Below are positions 6,108 to 60,589 of a stretch of DNA of 64,000 nt, piece after piece. The notes under the pieces were generated by a model. The model was not told where the DNA came from and searched no databases. It saw only the letters and a program-made list of their open reading frames with translations. Numbering within the stretch: position 1 is the first letter of the stretch; the number at the start of each line of letters is the position of its first letter. Both the position numbers and the translations under genes were made by a program. This DNA comes from Miltoncostaea marina (GTDB lineage: Bacteria > Actinomycetota > Thermoleophilia > Miltoncostaeales > Miltoncostaeaceae): assembly GCF_018141525.1 (NCBI RefSeq), contig NZ_CP064655.1:496001-560000 (forward strand). Direction: 5' to 3'.

Positions 6108-6120
6108 TAGGAGCGAGAAG

Positions 6121-6333
6121 ATGTCGATGAGCAACGAGCGGATCTACACAGTCGCGGGTATGACGTGCGGACACTGCCGCGCGGCGGTCACCGAGGAGGT
6201 CGTCGCCGTGCCTGGCGTGACCCACGTCGATGTCGATCTGTCCACCGGCCGGCTCGCGGTGGTGGGCGATGGCATCACCGACGAGGCGATCGCGGCGGCG
6301 GTGACCGAGGCGGGATACACCCTGCAGTCGTGA
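6121..6333 (+). CDS. copZ: CopZ-like copper chaperone (HMA domain)
   Basis: A 70-residue cytosolic metallochaperone consisting of one HMA ferredoxin-like domain. The Cu(I) site is GMTCGHC with C16 and C19. It should pass Cu(I) to the CopA encoded downstream. ATG at 6121 is preceded by AGGAG at 6109-6113. The stop codon overlaps the GTG of the next gene, which suggests translational coupling in a copZ-exported protein-copA operon. The paralogue is at 57277-57486. Confidence 0.93.
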   Translation: MSMSNERIYTVAGMTCGHCRAAVTEEVVAVPGVTHVDVDLSTGRLAVVGDGITDEAIAAAVTEAGYTLQS

Positions 6334-7199
6334 CCGCGCCCGCCCGCATCGCGGCGTTCGTCGCCATCCTCGCGGCCACGTTCGGCCTGGCGGCCGTCGC
6401 GGGAGGCGCGCTGGAGCCGCTCCGCGCGGATGGCGGCGAGCGCCCGGCCGGCGGCCACCCAGAGGCGCACGGCGGCGCCGAGGAGCCTGCGCCGGAGCCT
6501 GCGCGACCCCGGGGCCTGGCCGTAGCGGACGCTGGGTATCGGCTGGTGCTCGAGCCGGCCTCGCCGTCGATCGGCAGGCCGGTCGACCTCACCTTTCGCG
6601 TGCTGCGACGCGACGGACGTCCCGTGGAGGACTTCGAGCAGCAGCACGAGCGGGCGATGCACCTGATCGTCGTGCGTCGTGACCTCACCGGCTACCAGCA
6701 CGTACATCCCGTGCGCGGCACAGGCGGCCGCTGGACTGTCCGGCTCACCCTGCCGGAGGCGGGGGTCTACCGCGCATTCGCCGACTTCCGCGCCGGTGGA
6801 CGCGACGTGACGCTCGCAACGGATGTCCTGGTCTCCGGCGTGTTCCGTCCACGCGCGCTGCCTGCGCCGGTCGCTCGCGTCCGTGCGGACCGATACGAGG
6901 GCCGCCTGATCACGGGCGGGCTCTCGCCTGGCGCCGAGGCTCAGCTCACGTACGAGATCAGCCGCGCCGGCGTGCCGGCAACGGGTCTCGAGCCGTACCT
7001 CGGCGCCGACGGGCACCTCGTCGCGCTGCGGGAGGGCGACCTCGCCTTCCTGCACGTCCATCCGGAGCCGGCGTCGCGACCGGGGCGCGTGGCGTTCGGC
7101 GCGACGCTGCCGTCGGTCGGCCGCTATCGACTCTTCCTGCAGTTCAAGATCGACGGCCGCGTCCGGACCGTCGGCCACACCTTGGAGGTCGCTCCGTGA
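6330..7199 (+). CDS. Exported His-rich protein of the copper cassette (element copy)
   Basis: A 289-residue protein with an N-terminal hydrophobic helix, probably a membrane anchor, followed by a Gly/His-rich linker and two beta-rich halves. Repeated histidine motifs stand out: a [17 protein letters not shown] stretch in the first half, and DGHLVAL with FLHVHP in the second. They look like extracytoplasmic metal sites. It has no firm named family for me. Its fixed place between copZ and copA in both cassettes implies a role in periplasmic or surface copper handling. GTG at 6330 overlaps the copZ stop, and its own stop overlaps the copA start. The alternative long upstream reading frame is only the copZ shadow. 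Confidence 0.8.
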
Positions 7200-9505
7200 G
7201 CTCACCCGGCGGCGTCCCCGAGCGCCTCGAGCTCCCGATCACCGGGATGACGTGCGCCTCGTGCGCCGCTCGCGTGGAGAAGCGCCTCAACCGCCTGGAG
7301 GGCGTGGAGGCGTCGGTCAACTACGCGACCGAGACCGCGTCGGTGGCGTTCGACCCCGGCGTGGTGCCACCCGAACGCCTGGTGGAGGCCGTCGAGCAGG
7401 CGGGCTACGGCGTGCGCCCGTCCGTCGCCGCCACCACGGGCACCGAGCAGCCGGCGGACGTGGACCCGACCGCGGCGCTGAGGCGGCGGCTCGTCGTGTC
7501 CGCGGTGCTGTCGCTGCCGGTCCTGGTGCTGTCCATGGTGCCGGCGCTCCAGTTCGACTACTGGGGCTGGCTCGCGCTCCAGCTGACGACGCCGGTCGTC
7601 CTGTGGGGCGGCTGGCCGTTCCACCGAGCCGCCTGGATCAACCTCCGCCACGGCGCCGCCACGATGGACACGCTCATCTCGGTCGGCACGCTCGCCGCGC
7701 TGGGCTGGTCGGCGGTCGCGCTGTTCTTCCTCGGCGCCGGCGAGCCGGACATGCGGATGGCGTTCGACCTGATCGTCGACCCGGGCGCGGAGTCGCATCA
7801 CATCTACCTCGAGGTGGCCGCGGTCGTCACGACCTTCATCCTGGCCGGCCGATACTTCGAGGCCCGGGCGAAGCGGCGGGCGGGCGCCGCGCTCGCAGCG
7901 CTGCTCGAGCTCGGCGCGAAGGATGTGGCGCTGCTCGACGACGACGGCGGCGAGCGGCGCATACCGATCGGCGATCTCGCGGTCGGTGACCGATTCCTGG
8001 TGCGCCCCGGCGAGAAGATCGCGACGGACGGCGTCGTCGAGGAGGGTGCCTCGGCCGTCGACGCATCGATGCTGACCGGCGAGAGCGTGCCAGTAGAGGT
8101 GGGGCCTGGCGCCCCGCTGGCCGGAGCGACGATCAACGCCGGCGGGCGCCTGGTGGTCCGTGCGACCCGGGTGGGGTCGGACACCGCTCTGGCGCAGATC
8201 GCGCGGCTCGTCACCGAGGCGCAGTCGGGGAAGGCGGCGGTCCAGCGTCTCGCCGATCGCATCTCGGCAGTGTTCGTGCCCGTCGTGATGGCCCTCGCCG
8301 CCGGGACGCTCGGCTTCTGGCTCGCCAACGGCGCGGGCGCCACGTTCGCGTTCACGGCCGCGGTTGCGGTGCTGATCATCGCCTGCCCGTGCGCGCTCGG
8401 GCTCGCCACGCCGACCGCGCTGCTGGTCGGGACGGGCCGCGGCGCGCAGCTCGGCATCCTGATCAAGGGGCCCGAGGTGCTGGAGTCGACGCGCCGGGTC
8501 GACACGGTGGTGCTGGACAAGACCGGCACCGTCACCAGCGGCGAGATGGCCGTGATCGACGTCGCCGTCGCGACGGGCGGGGACCGTGCGGAGGCGCTGC
8601 GGCTGGTCGGCGCCCTCGAGGACGGCTCCGAGCACCCGATCGCGCGCGCCATCGCCCGCGCGGCTCGCACAGAGCTTGGCGCGCTGCCGGCGCCGGAGTC
8701 CTTCACCAACCGCGAAGGCCTCGGCGTGGAGGGCGTCGTGGACGGGCGGTCGATCGTGGTCGGCCGGCCGATGCTGCTCGCCGACTGGGGCCTCCGCCTG
8801 CCGACGGCGCTCGAGACGGCCCTCCACGCCGCGCAGGGTGCCGGCGCCACGGCGGTCGCCGCCGCCTGGGACGGCGAGGCCCGCGCGCTCTTCGTCGTCG
8901 CCGACACGATCAAGCCGTCGAGCGCCGAGGCGATACGGCGCCTGCGAGAGCTGGGGCTGCGACCGGTGTTGCTGACGGGCGACAACGAGGCCACCGCGCG
9001 GGCGGTGGCCGCCGAGGTCGGCATCGACGAGGTGATCGCGGAGGTGCTCCCCGCGGACAAGGTGACCGTCGTCCGTCGCCTGCAGGACGACGGGCGGGTG
9101 GTGGCGATGGTCGGCGACGGCGTGAACGACGCCCCCGCGCTGGCACAGGCGGATCTCGGCTTGGCCATCGGCACCGGCACAGATGTCGCGATCGAGTCCT
9201 CGGATCTGACGCTCATCTCGGGCGACCTGCGAGCCGCGGCGGACGCGATCCGGCTATCGCGACGCACGCTCCGAACCATCAAGGGCAACCTGTTCTGGGC
9301 CTTCGCCTACAACGTGGCCGCCCTGCCGCTCGCCGCTGCGGGCTACCTCAACCCGCTGGTCGCGGGCGCCGCGATGGGGCTCTCCAGCGTGTTCGTCGTC
9401 TCGAACAGCCTGCGCCTGCGGGCCTTCGGCCGGCTACGAGCGGACGACGATCTTCCGTCCCCTCCGGCGTCGGCCGGTCGGACGGCGGTCGCCGCCAGAA
9501 CCTGA
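7196..9505 (+). CDS. copA: CopA-type Cu(I)-exporting P1B ATPase (element copy)
   Basis: A 769-residue P1B-1 pump for cytosolic Cu(I). It has one N-terminal HMA domain (C20 and C23 in GMTCASC), eight predicted membrane helices, a TGES actuator loop, C397-P-C399 in the transport helix, phosphorylation D441 in [11 protein letters not shown] and GDGVNDAP. Conserved NxxxYN and MxxSS type residues in the last helices (AFAYN, MGLSS) support Cu(I) specificity. GTG at 7196 overlaps the upstream stop in a GTGA. The protein is closely similar along its length to the chromosomal CopA at 58358-60589, and differs most in the linker after the HMA domain and at the C-terminus. Confidence 0.95.
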
Positions 9506-51220: not shown

Positions 51221-51491
51221 ACCCCGTCGCTCCGCTGACGGCCAAGTGGACCCCGGGGCTCCGGCCAAGTGGACCCCGGGGCTCCGCCCGAGTGGACCCC
51301 GGGGCTCCGCCCAAGTGGACCCCGGGGCTCCGCCCAAGTGGACCCCGGGGCTCCGCCCAAGTGGACCCCGGGGCTCCGCCCGAGTGGACCCCGCGGCTCC
51401 GCCCGAGTGGACCCCGGGGCTCCGCCCAAGTGGACCCCGTCGCTCCGCTGACGGCCAAGTGGACCCCGGGGCTCCGCCCAAGTGGACCCCC
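51221..51491. repeat. Tandem array of a 23-bp GC-rich repeat (11 units)
   Basis: The core AGTGGACCCC begins at 51245, 51268, 51291, 51314, 51337, 51360, 51383, 51406, 51429, 51458 and 51481. The period is exactly 23 bp except one step of 29. Between cores the usual filler is GGGGCTCCGCCCA or its CCCGAG variant. A distinct segment, CCCCGTCGCTCCGCTGACGG, occurs just before the first unit and again at the 29-bp step, which implies duplication of a larger block. Units alternate CCCAAG, CCCGAG and GGCCAAG. The array lies between two convergent genes. Since 23 is not a multiple of three, coding is unlikely despite long open frames. Confidence 0.9.
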
Positions 51492-52189: not shown

Positions 52190-52690
52190 GTGCGACGTCC
52201 GACCGTGATCGCGGCGGCGCTCGTGGCGCTGGCCGGCGGCGTGGCCGCCGGTTGCGGGGGCGACGACGGCGCGTCGGAGGCGGCGAGCGCGGCGACGACG
52301 ACGGCCGCCGCCAGCTCCACGACGGCCGGCGGGCCGGCCGGCGGCGCGGCCGCGGGCGCCGCGGTGCGCGACCTGAAGGCCGACCTGGCCGCCGTGGTCG
52401 CCGACATGCGCGCCCGGCCCTTCGGACGGGGCGAGGCCCGCCTCGCGGCGCTCGACGAGCGGCTGGCCGCGATCTCGGCCGGCATCGCCGCGCTCGAGGC
52501 CGACGCCGGCGCGCCGGGCGCGCCGGATGCATCGGTGATCGCGAACCTGCGCGAGGCCGAGGGTCACCTGCGCCGCTACATCGCGCAGGGCCGGGCGGGC
52601 GAGGAGATCGCGATGCAGCTGTCGGTGTACCGCTACCTCTGGGCCCTCAACCGGCTGCCGGCCAGCCTGTCGGACCTCTACGGCGCCTGA
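52190..52690 (+). CDS. Hypothetical lipoprotein with helical domain
   Basis: A 166-residue exported protein with lipobox VAAGC (about residues 18-22), a Ser/Thr/Ala linker and a helical C-terminal part (RDLKADLAAVVADMRARPFG and LAALDERLAAISAGIAAL). No family was recognised. The GTG 52190 start follows GGGGAG. Its end overlaps the end of the convergent LysR gene by 13 bases. Confidence 0.7.
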   Translation: MRRPTVIAAALVALAGGVAAGCGGDDGASEAASAATTTAAASSTTAGGPAGGAAAGAAVRDLKADLAAVVADMRARPFGRGEARLAALDERLAAISAGIAALEADAGAPGAPDASVIANLREAEGHLRRYIAQGRAGEEIAMQLSVYRYLWALNRLPASLSDLYGA

Positions 52691-53700
52691 GGCCCGCCGA
52701 CGAGGGCGACCCCCGGGACGTCCTCGGCGAACTCGGCCACGAGCACCCGCACCGTCTCCACGAAGTCGCGGATGAACGGGCGCTCGTCGTCCGAGCGGAC
52801 CGCGACCGACAGCACCTCCGGCGCGAGGTCGGTCGTGCCGACGTAGCCCATCGGCGCGAGCGGGAACGAGCGCACTGCCGAGGGGTTGCCCGTGGTGAGC
52901 AGCCCGAGGTAGGCGATGGCGTTGACCGCGTCCTGCGTGCCGCAGACGCTGCCGCCGACGTTGGGCCGCTCGCCGCCGCGCAGCTCGCCGCCGTGCCAGT
53001 GCGCGCACGTGCGCGGCTGCTGGGGCACGAGCTCGACGAACGGCTCGTCGAGGAACTCGGTGGCCGACAGCCCCTCGGCCCCGGCCGCCGGGTGGCCCTC
53101 CGGCACGAGGATGCCGCGCTCCTCGGTGGCGACCGGGTGCACCGACAGGCGGTCGTCCTCGATCGGCGAGCGCAGCAGCGCGACGTCGAAGCGGCCGTCG
53201 ATGATCGCCTGGGCGTCGCCGATGGCCTCGCGCACCAGCAGCGACGCGCCCGGGTGGCGGGCGCGCAGGCCGCCGAGGATGGGCCGGGTGAGCTCGGCGA
53301 AGCCCTGGCCCTCGATGCCGACGCGCAGCATCTCGCCGGCCGAGGCGAGGTCGGGGACGATCGCGGTGCGCACGGCCTCCAGGCTGTCGAGCACCTCGCG
53401 GGCGATGGGCAGCAGCCCGGCGCCCGCCTCGGTCAGGCCGACCCGCCGCGAGGTGCGCTCGAAGAGCACCACGTCGAGCTTGGCCTCGAGGCGCCGGATG
53501 GTCTCGGAGAGCGACGACTGTGCGGTGCCGAGGCGCCGCGCCGCGCGCCCGAAGTGCAGCTCCTCGGCGAGCAGCACGAACGCGCGGAACTCCTTGGGCG
53601 TGGGCCGCTGCCCGACCGGCCGTCGCGGCTTGCCGAGCGCCTTGCCCTCTCTGTCGAAGCGCCCCTCCAACGCCTCCACACCCCCTGTCGGTCCAGGCAT
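52678..53700 (-). CDS. LysR-family transcriptional regulator
   Basis: A 340-residue regulator. The winged helix (about 35-95; RAARRLGTAQSSLSETIRRLE) lies after an unusual 30-residue charged leader. A LysR substrate-binding domain follows (MLRVGIEGQGFAELTRPILG). ATG 53700 is preferred over an earlier start at 53727. It is divergent from the CxxCH lipoprotein and may regulate it. Confidence 0.88.
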   Translation of the reverse strand: MPGPTGGVEALEGRFDREGKALGKPRRPVGQRPTPKEFRAFVLLAEELHFGRAARRLGTAQSSLSETIRRLEAKLDVVLFERTSRRVGLTEAGAGLLPIAREVLDSLEAVRTAIVPDLASAGEMLRVGIEGQGFAELTRPILGGLRARHPGASLLVREAIGDAQAIIDGRFDVALLRSPIEDDRLSVHPVATEERGILVPEGHPAAGAEGLSATEFLDEPFVELVPQQPRTCAHWHGGELRGGERPNVGGSVCGTQDAVNAIAYLGLLTTGNPSAVRSFPLAPMGYVGTTDLAPEVLSVAVRSDDERPFIRDFVETVRVLVAEFAEDVPGVALVGGPQAP

Positions 53701-53875: not shown

Positions 53876-55921
53876 ATGATCGCGAAACGGTCCTTGCCAA
53901 CCATCGCGGCGACGGCGCTGGTCGCCCTCGCTGCGGTGATCGCGGCCGTCGGCTGCGGCAGCGACGACGGGTCCGGCGGCGACGCAGGCGTCATCGAGGG
54001 CACCGTCACCTCGGGTGACGGCACGCCCGAGGCGGGCGTCTGGGTCGTCGCCGAGACCGACTCCCTGCCGACGAAGTACCGCAAGATCGTCGTCACCAAC
54101 GACGACGGGAAGTTCCTGCTGCCGGAGATGCCCGAGGCCGACTACCAGGTCTGGGCGCGCGGCTACGGCCTGCTCGACACGTCCAAGGTGGACGCGCGGA
54201 CGGGCGACTCGGTGGAGCTGTCGGCGAAGGTCACGAGCCCGCAGGAGGCGGCCAAGATCTACCCCTCGAACTACTTCCTCTCGATGTTCGAGCCGCCCGA
54301 CACGTCGGCCGACTGGATGACCGACTTCAAGCTCACCTGCATGCTCTGCCACCAGTTCGGGTCGGTCGCGACCCGGGCCGGCGCCACGCCGGAGTTCTTC
54401 GAGAAGGGCCTGAAGAAGTCCAACGTCATGAACGCGGGCGTCGAGCGCCTCGGCGGCGAGAAGTTCATCCAGGCGCTCGCCGACTGGGGCAAGCGCATCA
54501 AGGACGGCGAGGTCCCCAAGGAGACCCCGCCGCGCCCGCAGGGCATCGAGCGCAACCTCGTGGTCACGCAGTGGGAGTTCGGTGACAACTTCACCTACGC
54601 CCACGACGAGATCGCCACGGACAAGCGCAACCCGACCCTCAACGGCGACGGCCCCGTCTGGGCCGTGGACCTGGCGAACGACCGCCTGTTCGGCGTCGAC
54701 CCCACCACGCACGAGGTGGAGGAGCACAAGTTCCCGACCCGGGACGGCTTCGACACGGCGTGGTGCGACCAGACGTTCCAGACGGCGGCCGCGCTCGAGG
54801 GCAGCGAGACGCCGATCAAGTCGGGCTTCGGCTCGCTGGGCTGCCCCGCCCCGGGCGGCACGACCGCGTTCGCGGGCAAGTACGACAACCCGGCCAACCC
54901 CCACAACCCGATGATGGACGACCAGGGCCGCGTCTGGGCCACGAGCCAGATCCGCCGCGAGTGGGCCGACGACGCCCCCGAGTGGTGCAAGAACGACCCG
55001 GTCATCCGCGACAACTCGCACCACCGGCAGCTCTCGGTGTTCGACCCGAAGACCGACGAGTTCCACCTGATCGACTCCTGCGTCGGCTCGCACCACCTGC
55101 AGTTCGCCGAGGACGGCGTCCTCTACTACAGCGGCGACTCCTACGCGATCGGCTGGTTCGACCCGAGCAAGTGGGACCCGGAGAAGCCCGAGACGGTCGA
55201 GCGGGCCTCCGGCTACTCCGAGGTGAAGGTCGACTCCGACGGCGACGGGAAGGCCGACATGCCGTTCCCGGGCTTCAACTACGGCATCGTCGCCAGCCCC
55301 GACGGCACGGTCTGGACCGCGTCGCCGGGCGCCCCGGGCCACATCATGCGGTTCGACCCGGAGACGAAGACGCACGAGGTCTACCAGCCGCCGGCGCCCA
55401 TCTCGGGCCCGCGCGGGGTGGACGTCGACACGGACGGCGTCATCTGGACCGCCACCGGCGGCTCCGGGCACATCGCCTCCTTCGACCGCAGGCTGTGCAA
55501 GCAGACCTGGGGCGACGGCACCCAGTGCCCCGAGGGCTGGAAGTCGTGGGAGGTGCCCGGCCCGGCCGCGCAGGTCGAGTCCGGCGCCAAGAACGTCCGC
55601 AAGGCCGACCTGCACTACTACGTCTGGGTCGACCAGCACAACACGTTCGGCCTCGGCGAGGACGTCGTCATCGCCAACGGCACGGACTCGGACTCGCTGA
55701 TCGCCTTCAACCCGGCGACCGAGGAGTTCACCCGGGTGCGCATCCCGTACCCGCTGAACACCTACACCCGCGGGCTCGACGGGCGCATCGACGACCCGGA
55801 CGCTGGCTGGAAGGGCCGCGGCCTGTGGTTCTCCAACGGCGGCGACCCGATCTTCCACTCGGAGACGGGCGTCAGCTACATGGGCCACGTGCAGCTGCGC
55901 GACGACCCGCTGAGCGACTAG
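53876..55921 (+). CDS. Lipoprotein fusing a carboxypeptidase-regulatory-like domain, a CxxCH haem site and a beta-propeller
   Basis: A 681-residue exported lipoprotein (lipobox AAVGC, then GSDDGSGGD). Residues about 40-115 form a prealbumin-like domain (GTVTSGDGTPEAGVWVVAE). A single c-type haem motif CMLCHQFG follows at about residue 155. From about 220 to the end there is a lyase/NHL-like propeller (GPVWAVDLANDRLFGVD, DGTVWTASPGAPGHIMRFD, DGVIWTATGGSGHI). It may be an electron-transfer or dehydrogenase-like surface protein. The ccm-like genes just downstream would attach its haem. ATG 53876 has GGACGGAGGG five bases upstream. The open frame before it is antisense to the LysR gene. Confidence 0.85.
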   Translation: MIAKRSLPTIAATALVALAAVIAAVGCGSDDGSGGDAGVIEGTVTSGDGTPEAGVWVVAETDSLPTKYRKIVVTNDDGKFLLPEMPEADYQVWARGYGLLDTSKVDARTGDSVELSAKVTSPQEAAKIYPSNYFLSMFEPPDTSADWMTDFKLTCMLCHQFGSVATRAGATPEFFEKGLKKSNVMNAGVERLGGEKFIQALADWGKRIKDGEVPKETPPRPQGIERNLVVTQWEFGDNFTYAHDEIATDKRNPTLNGDGPVWAVDLANDRLFGVDPTTHEVEEHKFPTRDGFDTAWCDQTFQTAAALEGSETPIKSGFGSLGCPAPGGTTAFAGKYDNPANPHNPMMDDQGRVWATSQIRREWADDAPEWCKNDPVIRDNSHHRQLSVFDPKTDEFHLIDSCVGSHHLQFAEDGVLYYSGDSYAIGWFDPSKWDPEKPETVERASGYSEVKVDSDGDGKADMPFPGFNYGIVASPDGTVWTASPGAPGHIMRFDPETKTHEVYQPPAPISGPRGVDVDTDGVIWTATGGSGHIASFDRRLCKQTWGDGTQCPEGWKSWEVPGPAAQVESGAKNVRKADLHYYVWVDQHNTFGLGEDVVIANGTDSDSLIAFNPATEEFTRVRIPYPLNTYTRGLDGRIDDPDAGWKGRGLWFSNGGDPIFHSETGVSYMGHVQLRDDPLSD

Positions 55922-55937
55922 GACGCAGCACCGCGAC

Positions 55938-55971
55938 GGCGGTCCCCGGCCGGCATCGGCCGGGGACCGCC
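55938..55971 (+). terminator. Hairpin after the CxxCH lipoprotein
   Basis: GGCGGTCCCCGGCC (55938-55951) and GGCCGGGGACCGCC (55958-55971) pair perfectly around GGCATC. It separates the lipoprotein from the ccm-like genes and may act as a terminator or a partial attenuator. Confidence 0.7.
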
Positions 55972-55994: not shown

Positions 55995-56183
55995 ATGAGC
56001 ACGACACACCAACTGCTGGCGGCCGGGTACGCGGTCGCCGTCTCGGGCCTGCTGGGGTCGGTCGTCGCGATCGGCCTGCGGGCCGCCCGCGCCGGCCGCC
56101 ACGCCGACGACCTCGCGCGGGCCGCCGGGAGCGACCCCGGTGGGGGCGCGCCCGGAGCGAGCGCCACGGACGGCGCCCGGTGA
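55995..56183 (+). CDS. CcmD-like small membrane protein
   Basis: A 62-residue protein with one helix (LLAAGYAVAVSGLLGSVVAIG) and a basic tail, the general form of CcmD, the haem-exporter accessory subunit. Its assignment rests on size and on ccmE two genes downstream. ATG 55995 follows ACGGAG. Its stop overlaps the next GTG. Confidence 0.6.
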   Translation: MSTTHQLLAAGYAVAVSGLLGSVVAIGLRAARAGRHADDLARAAGSDPGGGAPGASATDGAR

Positions 56184-56434
56184 GCCCGGCCGACCCGACG
56201 ATCGACTCCCTGCGCACGCGGGCCGAGCAGATCCGCCGCGCCGAGCTGGCCCGCATGGACGGGGCGTGGGACGGGCTGTCGGCGGCGGACCGCCGGCTGC
56301 TCGACGAGCTGACCGAGCGGCTCGTGCTCGAGCTGCTGCGCGAGCCGATCGTGCGACTGCGCGGCGGCGCCGACGGCCACGCCGACAGCCTGCGCCACCT
56401 GTTCGCCCTCGACGACGCGCGCGCCGCCGCCTGA
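56180..56434 (+). CDS. Stand-alone helical protein resembling the GluTR (HemA) dimerisation domain
   Basis: An 84-residue all-helical protein. The stretch ADRRLLDELTERLVLELLREPIVRLR followed by GHADSLRHLFAL resembles the C-terminal dimerisation domain of glutamyl-tRNA reductase, where a helix ends with a conserved LL-x-x-P-x-x-x-L-R pattern. No catalytic or NADPH domain is attached. It lies between the CcmD-like gene and ccmE, with four-base and one-base overlaps, so a role in haem supply or maturation is plausible but unproven. Confidence 0.7.
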   Translation: MSPADPTIDSLRTRAEQIRRAELARMDGAWDGLSAADRRLLDELTERLVLELLREPIVRLRGGADGHADSLRHLFALDDARAAA

Positions 56435-56847
56435 TGCGATCCCGGATGCGGTTCATCGTCGCGATCGGCCTGGCCGTGGTGCTGGGCGCCTGGCTGGCCT
56501 GGACCAGCATCGGCGGCAGCCTCGAGACCTACGCCGGCCCCGGCGAGCTGGCGGCCGCGACCACCTACCGGCTGAACGGCACCGTCGCCCCCGGCGCGCC
56601 CGCCGACGCGGCCGGGCGGGCCCAGACCGACGAGGGCCTGGTCTTCACCCTGCGCGACAAGGAGAACCCCGGCCAGACGGTCGAGGTCGTCTACCACGGC
56701 TCGGTGCCCGACCAGTTCAAGTCGGGGCGCGAGATCGTGGTCACCGGCGCCCTCGACGAGCAGGGCCGCTTCATCGCCCGCGAGGACTCCCTCGTCACCC
56801 TCTGCCCGTCGAAGTTCTCCGACGAGCCGGGCGACACGCAGACCTGA
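56434..56847 (+). CDS. ccmE: CcmE-like haem chaperone with a Cys-type haem site
   Basis: A 137-residue protein with an N-terminal membrane anchor (MRFIVAIGLAVVLGAWLAW) and the CcmE OB-fold (YRLNGTVAPG, VFTLRDKENPGQTVEVVYHG, PDQFKSGREIVVTG). The usual haem-binding His is replaced by LCPSKF, the cysteine-type (CxxxY-like) site known in archaeal and some bacterial CcmE, here with Phe in place of Tyr. It should carry haem to apocytochromes such as the CxxCH protein upstream. The ATG shares one base with the preceding stop (TGATG). Confidence 0.88.
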   Translation: MRSRMRFIVAIGLAVVLGAWLAWTSIGGSLETYAGPGELAAATTYRLNGTVAPGAPADAAGRAQTDEGLVFTLRDKENPGQTVEVVYHGSVPDQFKSGREIVVTGALDEQGRFIAREDSLVTLCPSKFSDEPGDTQT

Positions 56848-56851
56848 CGCC

Positions 56852-57259: not shown

Positions 57260-57276
57260 TCAATCAGGAGGAGCAG

Positions 57277-57486
57277 ATGCCGGTCACCGAGCGCACCTAC
57301 ACCGTCGCCGGGATGACGTGCGGTCACTGCCGCACCGCGGTCGAGCAGGAGGTCGGCGCCGTGCCGGGCGTCGCGGAGGCCCGGGTCGATCTCGAGGCCG
57401 GACGCCTCACCGTGCGCGGCGAGGACGTCGACGACGCGGCCGTGGCCGCCGCCGTCGACGAGGCCGGCTACGAGGTCGTCGCGTGA
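57277..57486 (+). CDS. copZ: CopZ-like copper chaperone (chromosomal copy)
   Basis: A 69-residue HMA protein with Cu(I) ligands C15 and C18 in GMTCGHC. ATG 57277 follows AGGAGGAG. It matches the element copy at 6121-6333 in length, motif and in the four-base overlap with the next gene. Confidence 0.94.
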   Translation: MPVTERTYTVAGMTCGHCRTAVEQEVGAVPGVAEARVDLEAGRLTVRGEDVDDAAVAAAVDEAGYEVVA

Positions 57487-58361
57487 ACACAGCCACCCGC
57501 ATGGCGCTGTTCGGCCTCGCGCTCGCCGCCGTCGGCGGCGGCGCGGCGGCGGTCGGCGCCGGCCTCGACCCCCTGCGCGACGACGGCGGGGACGCCGGCC
57601 ACGGCCACGCGTCCGCCGCGCCGGCCCACGCGGACGGCGGCCACGCGGCGCCCGCGGCCGCCGGCGCGCCCGCCGGCCTCGCCGTGGCGGAGGAGGGCCT
57701 CGCCCTGGTGCCCGAGCGCACCGTCATGGCCCTCGGCGCCGCGAGCGAGCTCGCGTTCCGGGTGGTGGGCGCGGACGGGCGGACGGTGCGCGACTTCGAC
57801 GTCGAGCACGAGCGCGAGATGCACGTGATCGTCGTGCGCCGCGACCTGACCGGCTACCAGCACCTGCACCCGCGCCGCGACGCCGCGGGACGCTGGACGG
57901 TGCCGCTGCGCCTCGACGCGGCGGGCGTCCACCGCGTCTACGCCGATTTCAGCACGGGCGGCCGCTCCGTCACCCTGGCCGCCGACCTGCACGTCGCCGG
58001 CGCCTACGCGCCGCGGCCGCTGCCCGCGCCGTCGGCGACGGCGTCCGACGCCGGCTACGAGGTGGGCCTGGACGCGGGCGAGCCGGTCGCGGGCGTGCCC
58101 GCCGACCTCGAGTTCCAGGTGCGGCGCGACGGCGCGCCGGTCGCCGGCATCGAGCCCTACCTGGGCGCCGACGGCCACCTGGTCGCGCTGCGCGAGGGCG
58201 ACCTCGCCTTCCTGCACGTGCACCCCGAGGAGGCGGAGGGCCGGGGCGTGGTGCGCTTCGCCGCCACCTTCCCCTCGGTGGGCCGCTACCGGCTCTTCCT
58301 GCAGTTCAAGCACGCCGGGGCGGTGCGGACCGTCGGGTACACGGTCGAGGTGCCGCGGTGA
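57483..58361 (+). CDS. Exported His-rich protein of the copper cassette (chromosomal copy)
   Basis: A 292-residue paralogue of the protein at 6330-7199. An N-terminal anchor helix, a His-rich linker (GHGHASAAPAHADGGHAAP) and two beta-rich halves bear the same [24 protein letters not shown] and FLHVHP motifs. The conservation of these His/Met clusters between the two copies, while linkers differ, marks them as the functional sites. GTG 57483 overlaps the copZ stop, and the copA GTG overlaps this stop. Confidence 0.82.
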   Translation: MNTATRMALFGLALAAVGGGAAAVGAGLDPLRDDGGDAGHGHASAAPAHADGGHAAPAAAGAPAGLAVAEEGLALVPERTVMALGAASELAFRVVGADGRTVRDFDVEHEREMHVIVVRRDLTGYQHLHPRRDAAGRWTVPLRLDAAGVHRVYADFSTGGRSVTLAADLHVAGAYAPRPLPAPSATASDAGYEVGLDAGEPVAGVPADLEFQVRRDGAPVAGIEPYLGADGHLVALREGDLAFLHVHPEEAEGRGVVRFAATFPSVGRYRLFLQFKHAGAVRTVGYTVEVPR

Positions 58362-60589
58362 CCGAGCGCCTCGACCTGCCGATCACCGGCATGACGTGCG
58401 CCTCCTGCGCGGCCCGCGTCGAGAAGAAGCTCAACCGCCTCGAGGGCGTCGAGGCGTCGGTCAACTACGCCACCGAGACGGCGACGGTCGCCTTCGACCC
58501 CGGGCGGGTGCCCGCCGAGCGGCTCGTGGCCGCGGTGGAGTCGGCCGGCTACGGGGCGACCCTGCCGGCCGCCCCGGGCGACGAGGCGCCGCCCGCCGCC
58601 GAGCCGGCCGACCCGGCGGCCGCCCTTCGCACGCGCCTCGTGGTGTCGGCGGCCCTGGCGCTGCCGGTGGTGCTGCTGTCCATGATCCCGCCGCTGCAGT
58701 TCGACAACTGGCAGTGGCTGGCCCTGCAGCTGGCGACGCCCGTGGTGCTGTGGGGCGCCTGGCCCTTCCACCGGGCCGCGTGGGTCAACCTGCGCCACGG
58801 CGCGGCCACGATGGACACGCTCGTGTCGATCGGCGTGGTCGCCGCGTGGATCTGGTCGCTCGTGGCCCTCTTCGGCCTCGGCGCCGGCGACCCCGGCATG
58901 CGGATGGGGTTCGACCTGGTGATCGACGCCGGCGCGGGGGCCGAGCACATCTACCTCGAGGTCGCCGCCGTGGTGACCGTCTTCATCCTGGCCGGCCGCT
59001 GGTTCGAGCAGCGCGCCAAGCGGCGCGCGGGCGCCGCCCTGACCGCCCTGCTCGAGCTCGGCGCCAAGGAGGCGGCGATCCTCGGCGACGACGGGGTCGA
59101 GCGGCGCGTGCCGGTCGCCGAGCTGGCCGCGGGCGACCGCTTCCTCGTGCGGCCCGGCGAGCGCATCGCCACCGACGGGACGGTCGAGGACGGCTCGTCG
59201 GCGGTCGATGCCTCGCTGCTGACCGGCGAGAGCGTGCCGGTCGAGGTCGGCCCGGGCGACGCCGTTGCCGGCGCCACGATCAACGCCGGCGGGCGCCTGG
59301 TGGTGCGCGCGACGCGCGTCGGCGCCGACACCGCCCTGGCGCAGATCGCCCGCCTGGTGACCGAGGCGCAGTCCGGCAAGGCACCCGTGCAGCGGCTCGC
59401 CGACCGGGTGGCCGCCGTCTTCGTGCCGGTCGTCATCGCCCTGGCCGTCGCGACGCTCGCCTTCTGGCTGGCCAACGGCGCGGGGGCGACCTACGCCTTC
59501 ACCGCGGCGGTGGCCGTGCTGATCATCGCCTGCCCGTGCGCGCTGGGCCTGGCCACCCCGACCGCGCTGCTGGTGGGCACCGGGCGCGGCGCCCAGCTCG
59601 GCATCCTCATCAAGGGCCCGGAGATCCTGGAGTCCACCCGGCGGGTCGACACGGTGGTGCTCGACAAGACCGGCACGGTCACGACGGGGCGGATGGCGCT
59701 CGTGGACGTCGCCCTCGCCCCCGGCGAGGACCGCGCCGAGACGCTGCGGATCGTGGGCGCCCTGGAGGACGGCTCCGAGCACCCGATCGCCCGCGCGATC
59801 GCCCGTGCGGCCCGCGACGAGGCCGGCCCCCTGCCGGCGCCGGAGCGGTTCGGCAACCGGGAGGGCCTCGGCGTGGAGGGCGTCGTCGACGGCCACGCGG
59901 TCGTGGTCGGCCGGCCGGCGCTGCTCGCCGACTGGGGGGTGGCGCTGGAGGGCGGGCTGGCGGCCGCGCTGGAGGCCGCGCAGGCCGCCGGGCGGACCGC
60001 GGTGGCGGCCGCCTGGGACGGCCGGGCCCGCGCGCTGCTGACGGTGGCCGACACCGTCAAGCCGTCGAGCGCCGAGGCGGTGCGCCGCCTGCGCGCCCTG
60101 GGGCTGCGGCCGGTGCTCCTGACCGGCGACACGGCCGCGACGGCGCGGGCGGTGGCGGCGGATGTGGGCATCGACGAGGTGATCGCCGACGTGCTGCCGG
60201 GCGAGAAGGCCGACGTGGTGCGCCGTCTGCAGGCCGAGGGCCGCGTCGTGGCGATGGTGGGCGACGGGGTCAACGACGCGCCGGCGCTCGCCCAGGCGGA
60301 CCTGGGCCTCGCGATCGGCACGGGCACCGACGTGGCGATCGAGTCGTCCGATCTGACCCTCGTCTCGGGCGACCTGCGCGCCGCGGGGGACGCCATCCGC
60401 CTGTCGCGCCGCACGCTCGCCACGATCAAGGGCAACCTGTTCTGGGCGTTCGCGTACAACGTCGCGGCGCTGCCGCTGGCGGCGCTCGGCTACCTCAACC
60501 CGCTCGTCGCCGGCGCAGCGATGGCGCTGTCGAGCGTGTTCGTGGTCTCCAACAGCCTGCGCCTGCGGCGCTTCCGGGCGGCCGGGTGA
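58358..60589 (+). CDS. copA: CopA-type Cu(I)-exporting P1B ATPase (chromosomal copy)
   Basis: A 743-residue pump with one HMA domain (C14 and C17), eight membrane helices, C392-P-C394, phosphorylation D436 (DKTGTVT), TGES, SEHP and GDGVNDAP. It is very similar to the element CopA throughout the membrane and catalytic domains. It probably provides baseline copper export, while the element copy adds capacity. The complete antisense open frame is a GC-skew shadow. Confidence 0.95.
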   Translation: MTERLDLPITGMTCASCAARVEKKLNRLEGVEASVNYATETATVAFDPGRVPAERLVAAVESAGYGATLPAAPGDEAPPAAEPADPAAALRTRLVVSAALALPVVLLSMIPPLQFDNWQWLALQLATPVVLWGAWPFHRAAWVNLRHGAATMDTLVSIGVVAAWIWSLVALFGLGAGDPGMRMGFDLVIDAGAGAEHIYLEVAAVVTVFILAGRWFEQRAKRRAGAALTALLELGAKEAAILGDDGVERRVPVAELAAGDRFLVRPGERIATDGTVEDGSSAVDASLLTGESVPVEVGPGDAVAGATINAGGRLVVRATRVGADTALAQIARLVTEAQSGKAPVQRLADRVAAVFVPVVIALAVATLAFWLANGAGATYAFTAAVAVLIIACPCALGLATPTALLVGTGRGAQLGILIKGPEILESTRRVDTVVLDKTGTVTTGRMALVDVALAPGEDRAETLRIVGALEDGSEHPIARAIARAARDEAGPLPAPERFGNREGLGVEGVVDGHAVVVGRPALLADWGVALEGGLAAALEAAQAAGRTAVAAAWDGRARALLTVADTVKPSSAEAVRRLRALGLRPVLLTGDTAATARAVAADVGIDEVIADVLPGEKADVVRRLQAEGRVVAMVGDGVNDAPALAQADLGLAIGTGTDVAIESSDLTLVSGDLRAAGDAIRLSRRTLATIKGNLFWAFAYNVAALPLAALGYLNPLVAGAAMALSSVFVVSNSLRLRRFRAAG

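Follow-up and report, generated by a model that had tools for sequence, protein, structure and literature searches.

A free-standing HemA dimerisation domain encoded behind a c-type-haem beta-propeller gene in the Miltoncostaeaceae

The genome of Miltoncostaea marina encodes, as a gene of its own, the C-terminal dimerisation domain of glutamyl-tRNA reductase (GluTR, HemA) without the rest of the enzyme. The gene, here called the orphan, is real, and its constant partner is the gene directly upstream, which codes for a secreted or lipoprotein-like beta-propeller with a c-type haem motif. It is this pair, propeller plus orphan domain, that is the real unit, while the ccmE gene that follows the orphan in the window (the whole stretch of 64,000 nucleotides that was analysed) is a recent and local neighbour. 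The explanations most likely to apply are those in which the orphan product is a HemA-derived cytoplasmic partner that ties haem supply or assembly to the propeller cytochrome. The features of the window that are discussed are the following:

52678 to 53679, minus strand: LysR-type regulator gene, divergent, upstream of the propeller gene (gene prediction, sequence reading)
53876 to 55921, plus strand: secreted/lipoprotein-like beta-propeller of 681 amino acids with one CxxCH motif, CMLCH (Pfam, alignment)
55938 to 55971, plus strand: terminator-like hairpin with a 15-bp stem, a 4-nt loop and no T run (ViennaRNA fold)
55995 to 56183, plus strand: ccmD-like ORF of 62 amino acids with one predicted membrane segment (tblastn to the genome's ccmD)
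56180 to 56434, plus strand: orphan GlutR_dimer (HemA dimerisation domain) gene (PF00745 match, AlphaFold2 fold match, tree)
56434 to 56847, plus strand: ccmE of the cysteine type, second copy (Pfam CcmE, E-value 3.2e-13)

Identity and predicted fold of the orphan

The orphan ORF has a GTG start and codes for 84 amino acids. A search with the GlutR_dimer profile, which an earlier note on this DNA had proposed, gave a clear match (Pfam-A PF00745, E-value 1.2e-13) that covers profile positions 22-99 of 99, its 51.7 bits being more than twice the curated cut-off of 22.9. The NCBIfam matches are glutamyl-tRNA reductase models, aligned over their C-terminal part only, and a phmmer search against the PDB returned Arabidopsis GluTR alone, with 4yvq as the best entry. 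The catalytic and NADPH-binding domains of glutamyl-tRNA reductase are absent from the product, in which Pfam detects PF00745 only.

The AlphaFold2 model (mean pLDDT 87.3) has helices at residues 4-25, 35-61 and 67-74 and takes the helical fold of the GluTR C-terminal domain. Its top fold match is 4yvq_A (TM 0.82 over 84 columns, the whole length), which is the isolated C-terminal region of Arabidopsis GluTR1, crystallised without the enzyme. Full-length plant GluTR came second in this search, with nothing above noise thereafter. As the Pfam, NCBIfam, phmmer and fold matches agree, the observation of a stand-alone HemA end is correct; the note had described a helical segment like the end of HemA from which the enzyme is absent, and the profile match, the fold match and the missing domains all bear this out. 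No signal or membrane segment is evident in the orphan. A search of the open-access literature found no publication on a stand-alone GluTR dimerisation domain, which does not in itself prove novelty, and an orphan gene of this kind is probably undescribed.

There are three PF00745 places in the M. marina genome (G000; one contig of 3.37 Mb), namely the full HemA, the window orphan and a second orphan at C1:2532.7 kb. The hemA gene lies in a cluster of the order ccmA-ccmB-ccmC-ccmD-sirohaem synthase-like-hemA-hemC (L005:5118-9323), and the same order is found in G001 and G006 (L151, L152), the gene names beyond hemA being taken from sequence reading. In this lineage the ccmABCD-hemA cluster thus already brings haem synthesis together with cytochrome c maturation. 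The two genomes of genus g7 also share a second, divergent HemA-like gene at a conserved position (L039:6262-7482, L040:6897-7937).

Distribution and the propeller partner

The family Miltoncostaeaceae was searched whole and has the orphan in five of its 42 genomes, in six copies. It is absent from the rest of the class (399 genomes searched), from 396 genomes of the phylum outside the family (at a threshold of 1e-18, which a more distant orphan could escape) and from the plasmids searched. On these phylum and plasmid searches a wide distribution was rejected.

All six copies, in five genomes, lie directly downstream of a gene for a propeller of about 680 amino acids with a CxxCH motif, on the same strand and at a distance of about 60-275 bases, while the flanks beyond the propeller module vary between genomes. 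The propeller gene itself occurs in six of the 399 class genomes (seven copies); five of these six have the orphan, and no other genome has it. The orphan is therefore specific to the Miltoncostaeaceae and to the propeller gene.

This dependence does not run in the other direction. One class genome, G006, has the propeller and lacks the orphan. A collection of named genomes yielded 79 propeller loci, the majority from Acidobacteria and Gammaproteobacteria. The orphan is present at one of them, L044, which is the same contig as that of G009, and at none of the 78 loci from other organisms, so that a role as general companion of the propeller family is ruled out. Given G006 and the 78 other loci, the propeller needs no orphan in general, and both observations count against the explanation that is preferred below.

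The 681-residue propeller shows weak matches to CarboxypepD_reg (at its start), SGL and Vgb_lyase, and the CxxCH c-type haem motif is present in 22 of 22 homologues inspected. The nearest members of the group of secreted propellers known from Acidobacteria, Gammaproteobacteria and others are 49-57% identical to it. Within the family the window propeller represents a lineage distinct from the other six copies, which form a clade (100/100). The association of the orphan with two distinct propeller lineages suggests a functional tie that outlived the replacement of its partner; alternatively, there may have been two separate recruitments of the orphan. A two-domain multicopper oxidase and an amicyanin-like cupredoxin are encoded divergently beside the propeller in G001, G003, G009 and G006 and at the second M. 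marina copy; the locus of G002 is cut by the contig end. A LysR gene is also found near the propeller locus of G006, where the LysR domains were confirmed.

Other features of the window include a copper cluster which is present twice (6109-9434 and 57266-60582, 77% identical in DNA) and consists of a CsoR-like repressor, an HMA domain protein and a P-type ATPase. There is also a short direct-repeat array at 51221-51490 with a period of about 23 bases, giving repeated peptide units in several frames.

The neighbouring ccm genes

The earlier note had placed the orphan between CcmD-like and CcmE genes, and this gene order is confirmed by ccmD similarity on one side and a CcmE match on the other. 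The frames overlap at both junctions (GTGA for ccmD/orphan, TGATG for orphan/ccmE). The 62-residue product is 44-46% identical to the ccmD of the ccmABCD-hemA operon (tblastn, E-value about 5e-8), which suggests that it is a ccmD paralogue; it has no Pfam match, the reference ORF in the ccmD position itself matching PF04995 at an E-value of 0.024. The CcmE has, as read from its sequence, CPSKF in place of HxxxY, at the position of the CxxxY motif of cysteine-type CcmE described in Desulfovibrio and archaea (PMC9084895).

Block 56433-56850 is 99.0% identical to the other ccmE of the genome (blastn, four mismatches in 418 nt), which adjoins ccmF at C1:2177.7 kb (L149:9669-10086). Such identity would fit either a precise recent duplication or arrival of the window ccmE, or a recent gene conversion. 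The ends of the block fall exactly at the ORF ends. The genome has two copies of ccmF (L149:7658-9647 and L150:7133-9122, 91% identical in DNA), one of them adjoining ccmE and the other located elsewhere, about 26 kb before the window.

It was asked whether the orphan always precedes ccmE. This is so for one of the six copies, that of the window; G001, G006, G009 and G017 have a single ccmE each, which never follows an orphan, and a general ccmE link is ruled out by this count and by the recent, near-identical nature of the window ccmE. The earlier interpretation is thus partly supported: a coupling to haem handling is backed by six of six copies behind a CxxCH propeller, and a coupling to ccmE is not. 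The note had named lack of conservation next to ccmE as grounds for dropping the idea, and such a lack is what the survey shows; the conserved neighbour is the propeller gene instead. That the orphan is a partner of CcmE or, an alternative raised in the note, a part of the Ccm machine is accordingly very improbable. Its position between ccmD and ccmE with overlapping frames would suit such a role, as would a truncated ccmE start located past the cupredoxin gene in the G003 cluster, but ccmE directly follows a single copy, as a 99% recent duplicate, and the other ccmE of M. marina has no orphan beside it. A conserved linkage with ccm genes, as a System I component would show, is not seen for the orphan. 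This G003 sequence (L037:5591-5662) follows the cupredoxin gene immediately and is cut by the contig end. Having its own ccmD-like gene and ccmE, the window operon does fit a dedicated haem-supply and maturation set for one cytochrome.

Origin, conserved residues and selection

A tree of 39 domains places the six orphans in a single clade (96/94) beside the family's HemA domains, which points to one origin of the orphan, from the HemA of this family. The free tree groups the window copy with the other orphans, but an AU test did not reject its independent descent from the HemA of its own genome (p 0.074). From gene order, it is suggested that ccmD and orphan in the window are one partial copy of the ccmD...hemA segment, although the ccmD-like gene is found beside the window copy only and the other five orphans are without ccmD.

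Residues A15, E16, L23 and L74 are kept in all six orphans, and I18, E22, L53, P56, T57, R72 and F75 in five of six. N50, K51 and H54 (orphan numbering; the N-K-x-x-H of HemA) rank highest in conservation among the polar positions of the HemA domain, being kept in 13, 15 and 16 of 16 HemAs respectively, and are changed in all six orphans. Since the orphan sequences are related, this counts as one inherited pattern and not as six separate events. The altered face may once have lain against the portion of HemA that the orphan lacks, or may be a surface that the enzyme uses for its own work.

The loss means that the HemA surface has not been faithfully kept, which is mildly against a faithful HemA mimic and makes a homodimer independent of HemA nearly as likely as HemA contact. 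The orphan product would then be a small homodimeric helical protein that serves the propeller, multicopper oxidase and cupredoxin set without contacting HemA, and may be, for example, an assembly or regulatory protein. This is a serious possibility, if on balance a doubtful one. It would account for a core that is kept while N-K-x-x-H is lost in all copies, for the strict linkage to the propeller with divergent oxidase and cupredoxin genes usually present, and for the faster evolution of the orphan, in which pN is about 0.12-0.43 as against 0.10-0.18 for the propeller at the same five loci. Nevertheless, there is no positive evidence for another partner, and the residues in question may simply have faced the part of HemA that is missing here.

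The same fast evolution could be expected of a HemA fragment that landed once behind a propeller gene and has been carried along with little or no function. The absence of the orphan from G006 and the non-significant constraint in most distant pairs would also agree with such a passenger. However, the closest pair of orphans, those of G002 and G003, differs at 19/70 synonymous and 23/191 non-synonymous sites (p 0.004), which indicates purifying selection, and the same was seen in some other pairs, most of the wider pairs being saturated and uninformative. All six divergent copies have intact frames, though stop codons are rare at such G+C, at least four copies other than that of the window have a clear ribosome site of the GGAGGTG type before the start, and the orphan accompanies both propeller lineages. 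A silent passenger is therefore considered unlikely, and less likely than a role with or without HemA contact.

In the window the hairpin at 55938-55971 separates the propeller gene from the gene that follows it, and a terminator-like structure in this place counts against the preferred explanation. The region folds at -46.5 kcal/mol for 78 nt (ViennaRNA), compared with a mean of -36.9 (sd 10.5) for gene ends of the window; since gene ends fold strongly in any case in this G+C-rich DNA, the hairpin is only moderately unusual. Visual inspection showed inverted repeats at the corresponding position in the five remaining orphan loci.

Possible function

Little is understood of the way in which bacteria adjust haem synthesis to what particular cytochromes require. 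The explanation we lean towards, tentatively and as somewhat short of an even chance, is that a HemA-derived domain was recruited to the haem-c propeller as a companion, probably adjusting haem supply through HemA. A free-standing HemA dimerisation domain would thereby have become the companion gene of a secreted c-type-haem beta-propeller. Its product is likely to be a cytoplasmic helical dimer, in view of the parent domain, which is a cytoplasmic dimeriser, and of the lack of an evident signal or membrane segment. When the propeller is made, the orphan would bind a protein that takes part in supplying or delivering haem, HemA's own dimerisation domain being the likeliest target, and haem supply would in this way be adjusted to that cytochrome. 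Docking on GluTR had been considered in the earlier note. The plant regulator FLU, which acts on GluTR at its dimerisation domain, offers a precedent and supports a form of this explanation with HemA contact. A more specific version, in which the free domain either enters mixed dimers with HemA or occludes HemA's docking surface upon propeller production and so acts as the operon's handle on haem synthesis, is possible but rather unlikely.

If a free HemA dimerisation domain does travel with a cytochrome gene, it would provide a direct and testable link to haem synthesis, comparable in effect to plant FLU but made from the enzyme itself. If there is no contact with HemA, the orphan is still a clear case of a domain that left an essential enzyme to become a separate gene.

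Comparison with known systems

The orphan is homologous to the C-terminal dimerisation domain of HemA/GluTR (PF00745), has the same predicted fold and appears to derive from the HemA of the same family, its product starting where the plant construct crystallised alone (4yvq) starts. Unlike GluTR, it has no catalytic domain, NADPH domain or spinal-helix start and has lost N-K-x-x-H, and unlike hemA it is encoded behind a cytochrome gene.

The protein encoded upstream belongs to the secreted CarboxypepD_reg/CxxCH/Vgb-lyase-like propellers found in Acidobacteria, Gammaproteobacteria and others, differing from those loci outside the Miltoncostaeaceae, of which 0/78 adjoin a GlutR_dimer gene. With the probable ccmD paralogue and the ccmE that flank the orphan, the window resembles System I cytochrome c maturation (PMC9084895). 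GlutR_dimer proteins are part of no System I described in the literature surveyed, and the ccmE beside the orphan, unlike that of System I, is a recent arrival or has lately been homogenised by gene conversion.

The closest functional parallel is with FLU and GluTR in plants, where the regulator FLU docks on the dimerisation domain alone and haem/chlorophyll supply is tuned through this domain (PMC4726326). No TPR protein is encoded in the cluster of the orphan; in plants the domain is bound by FLU, a membrane TPR protein, while in the orphan it is the domain itself that is free-standing.
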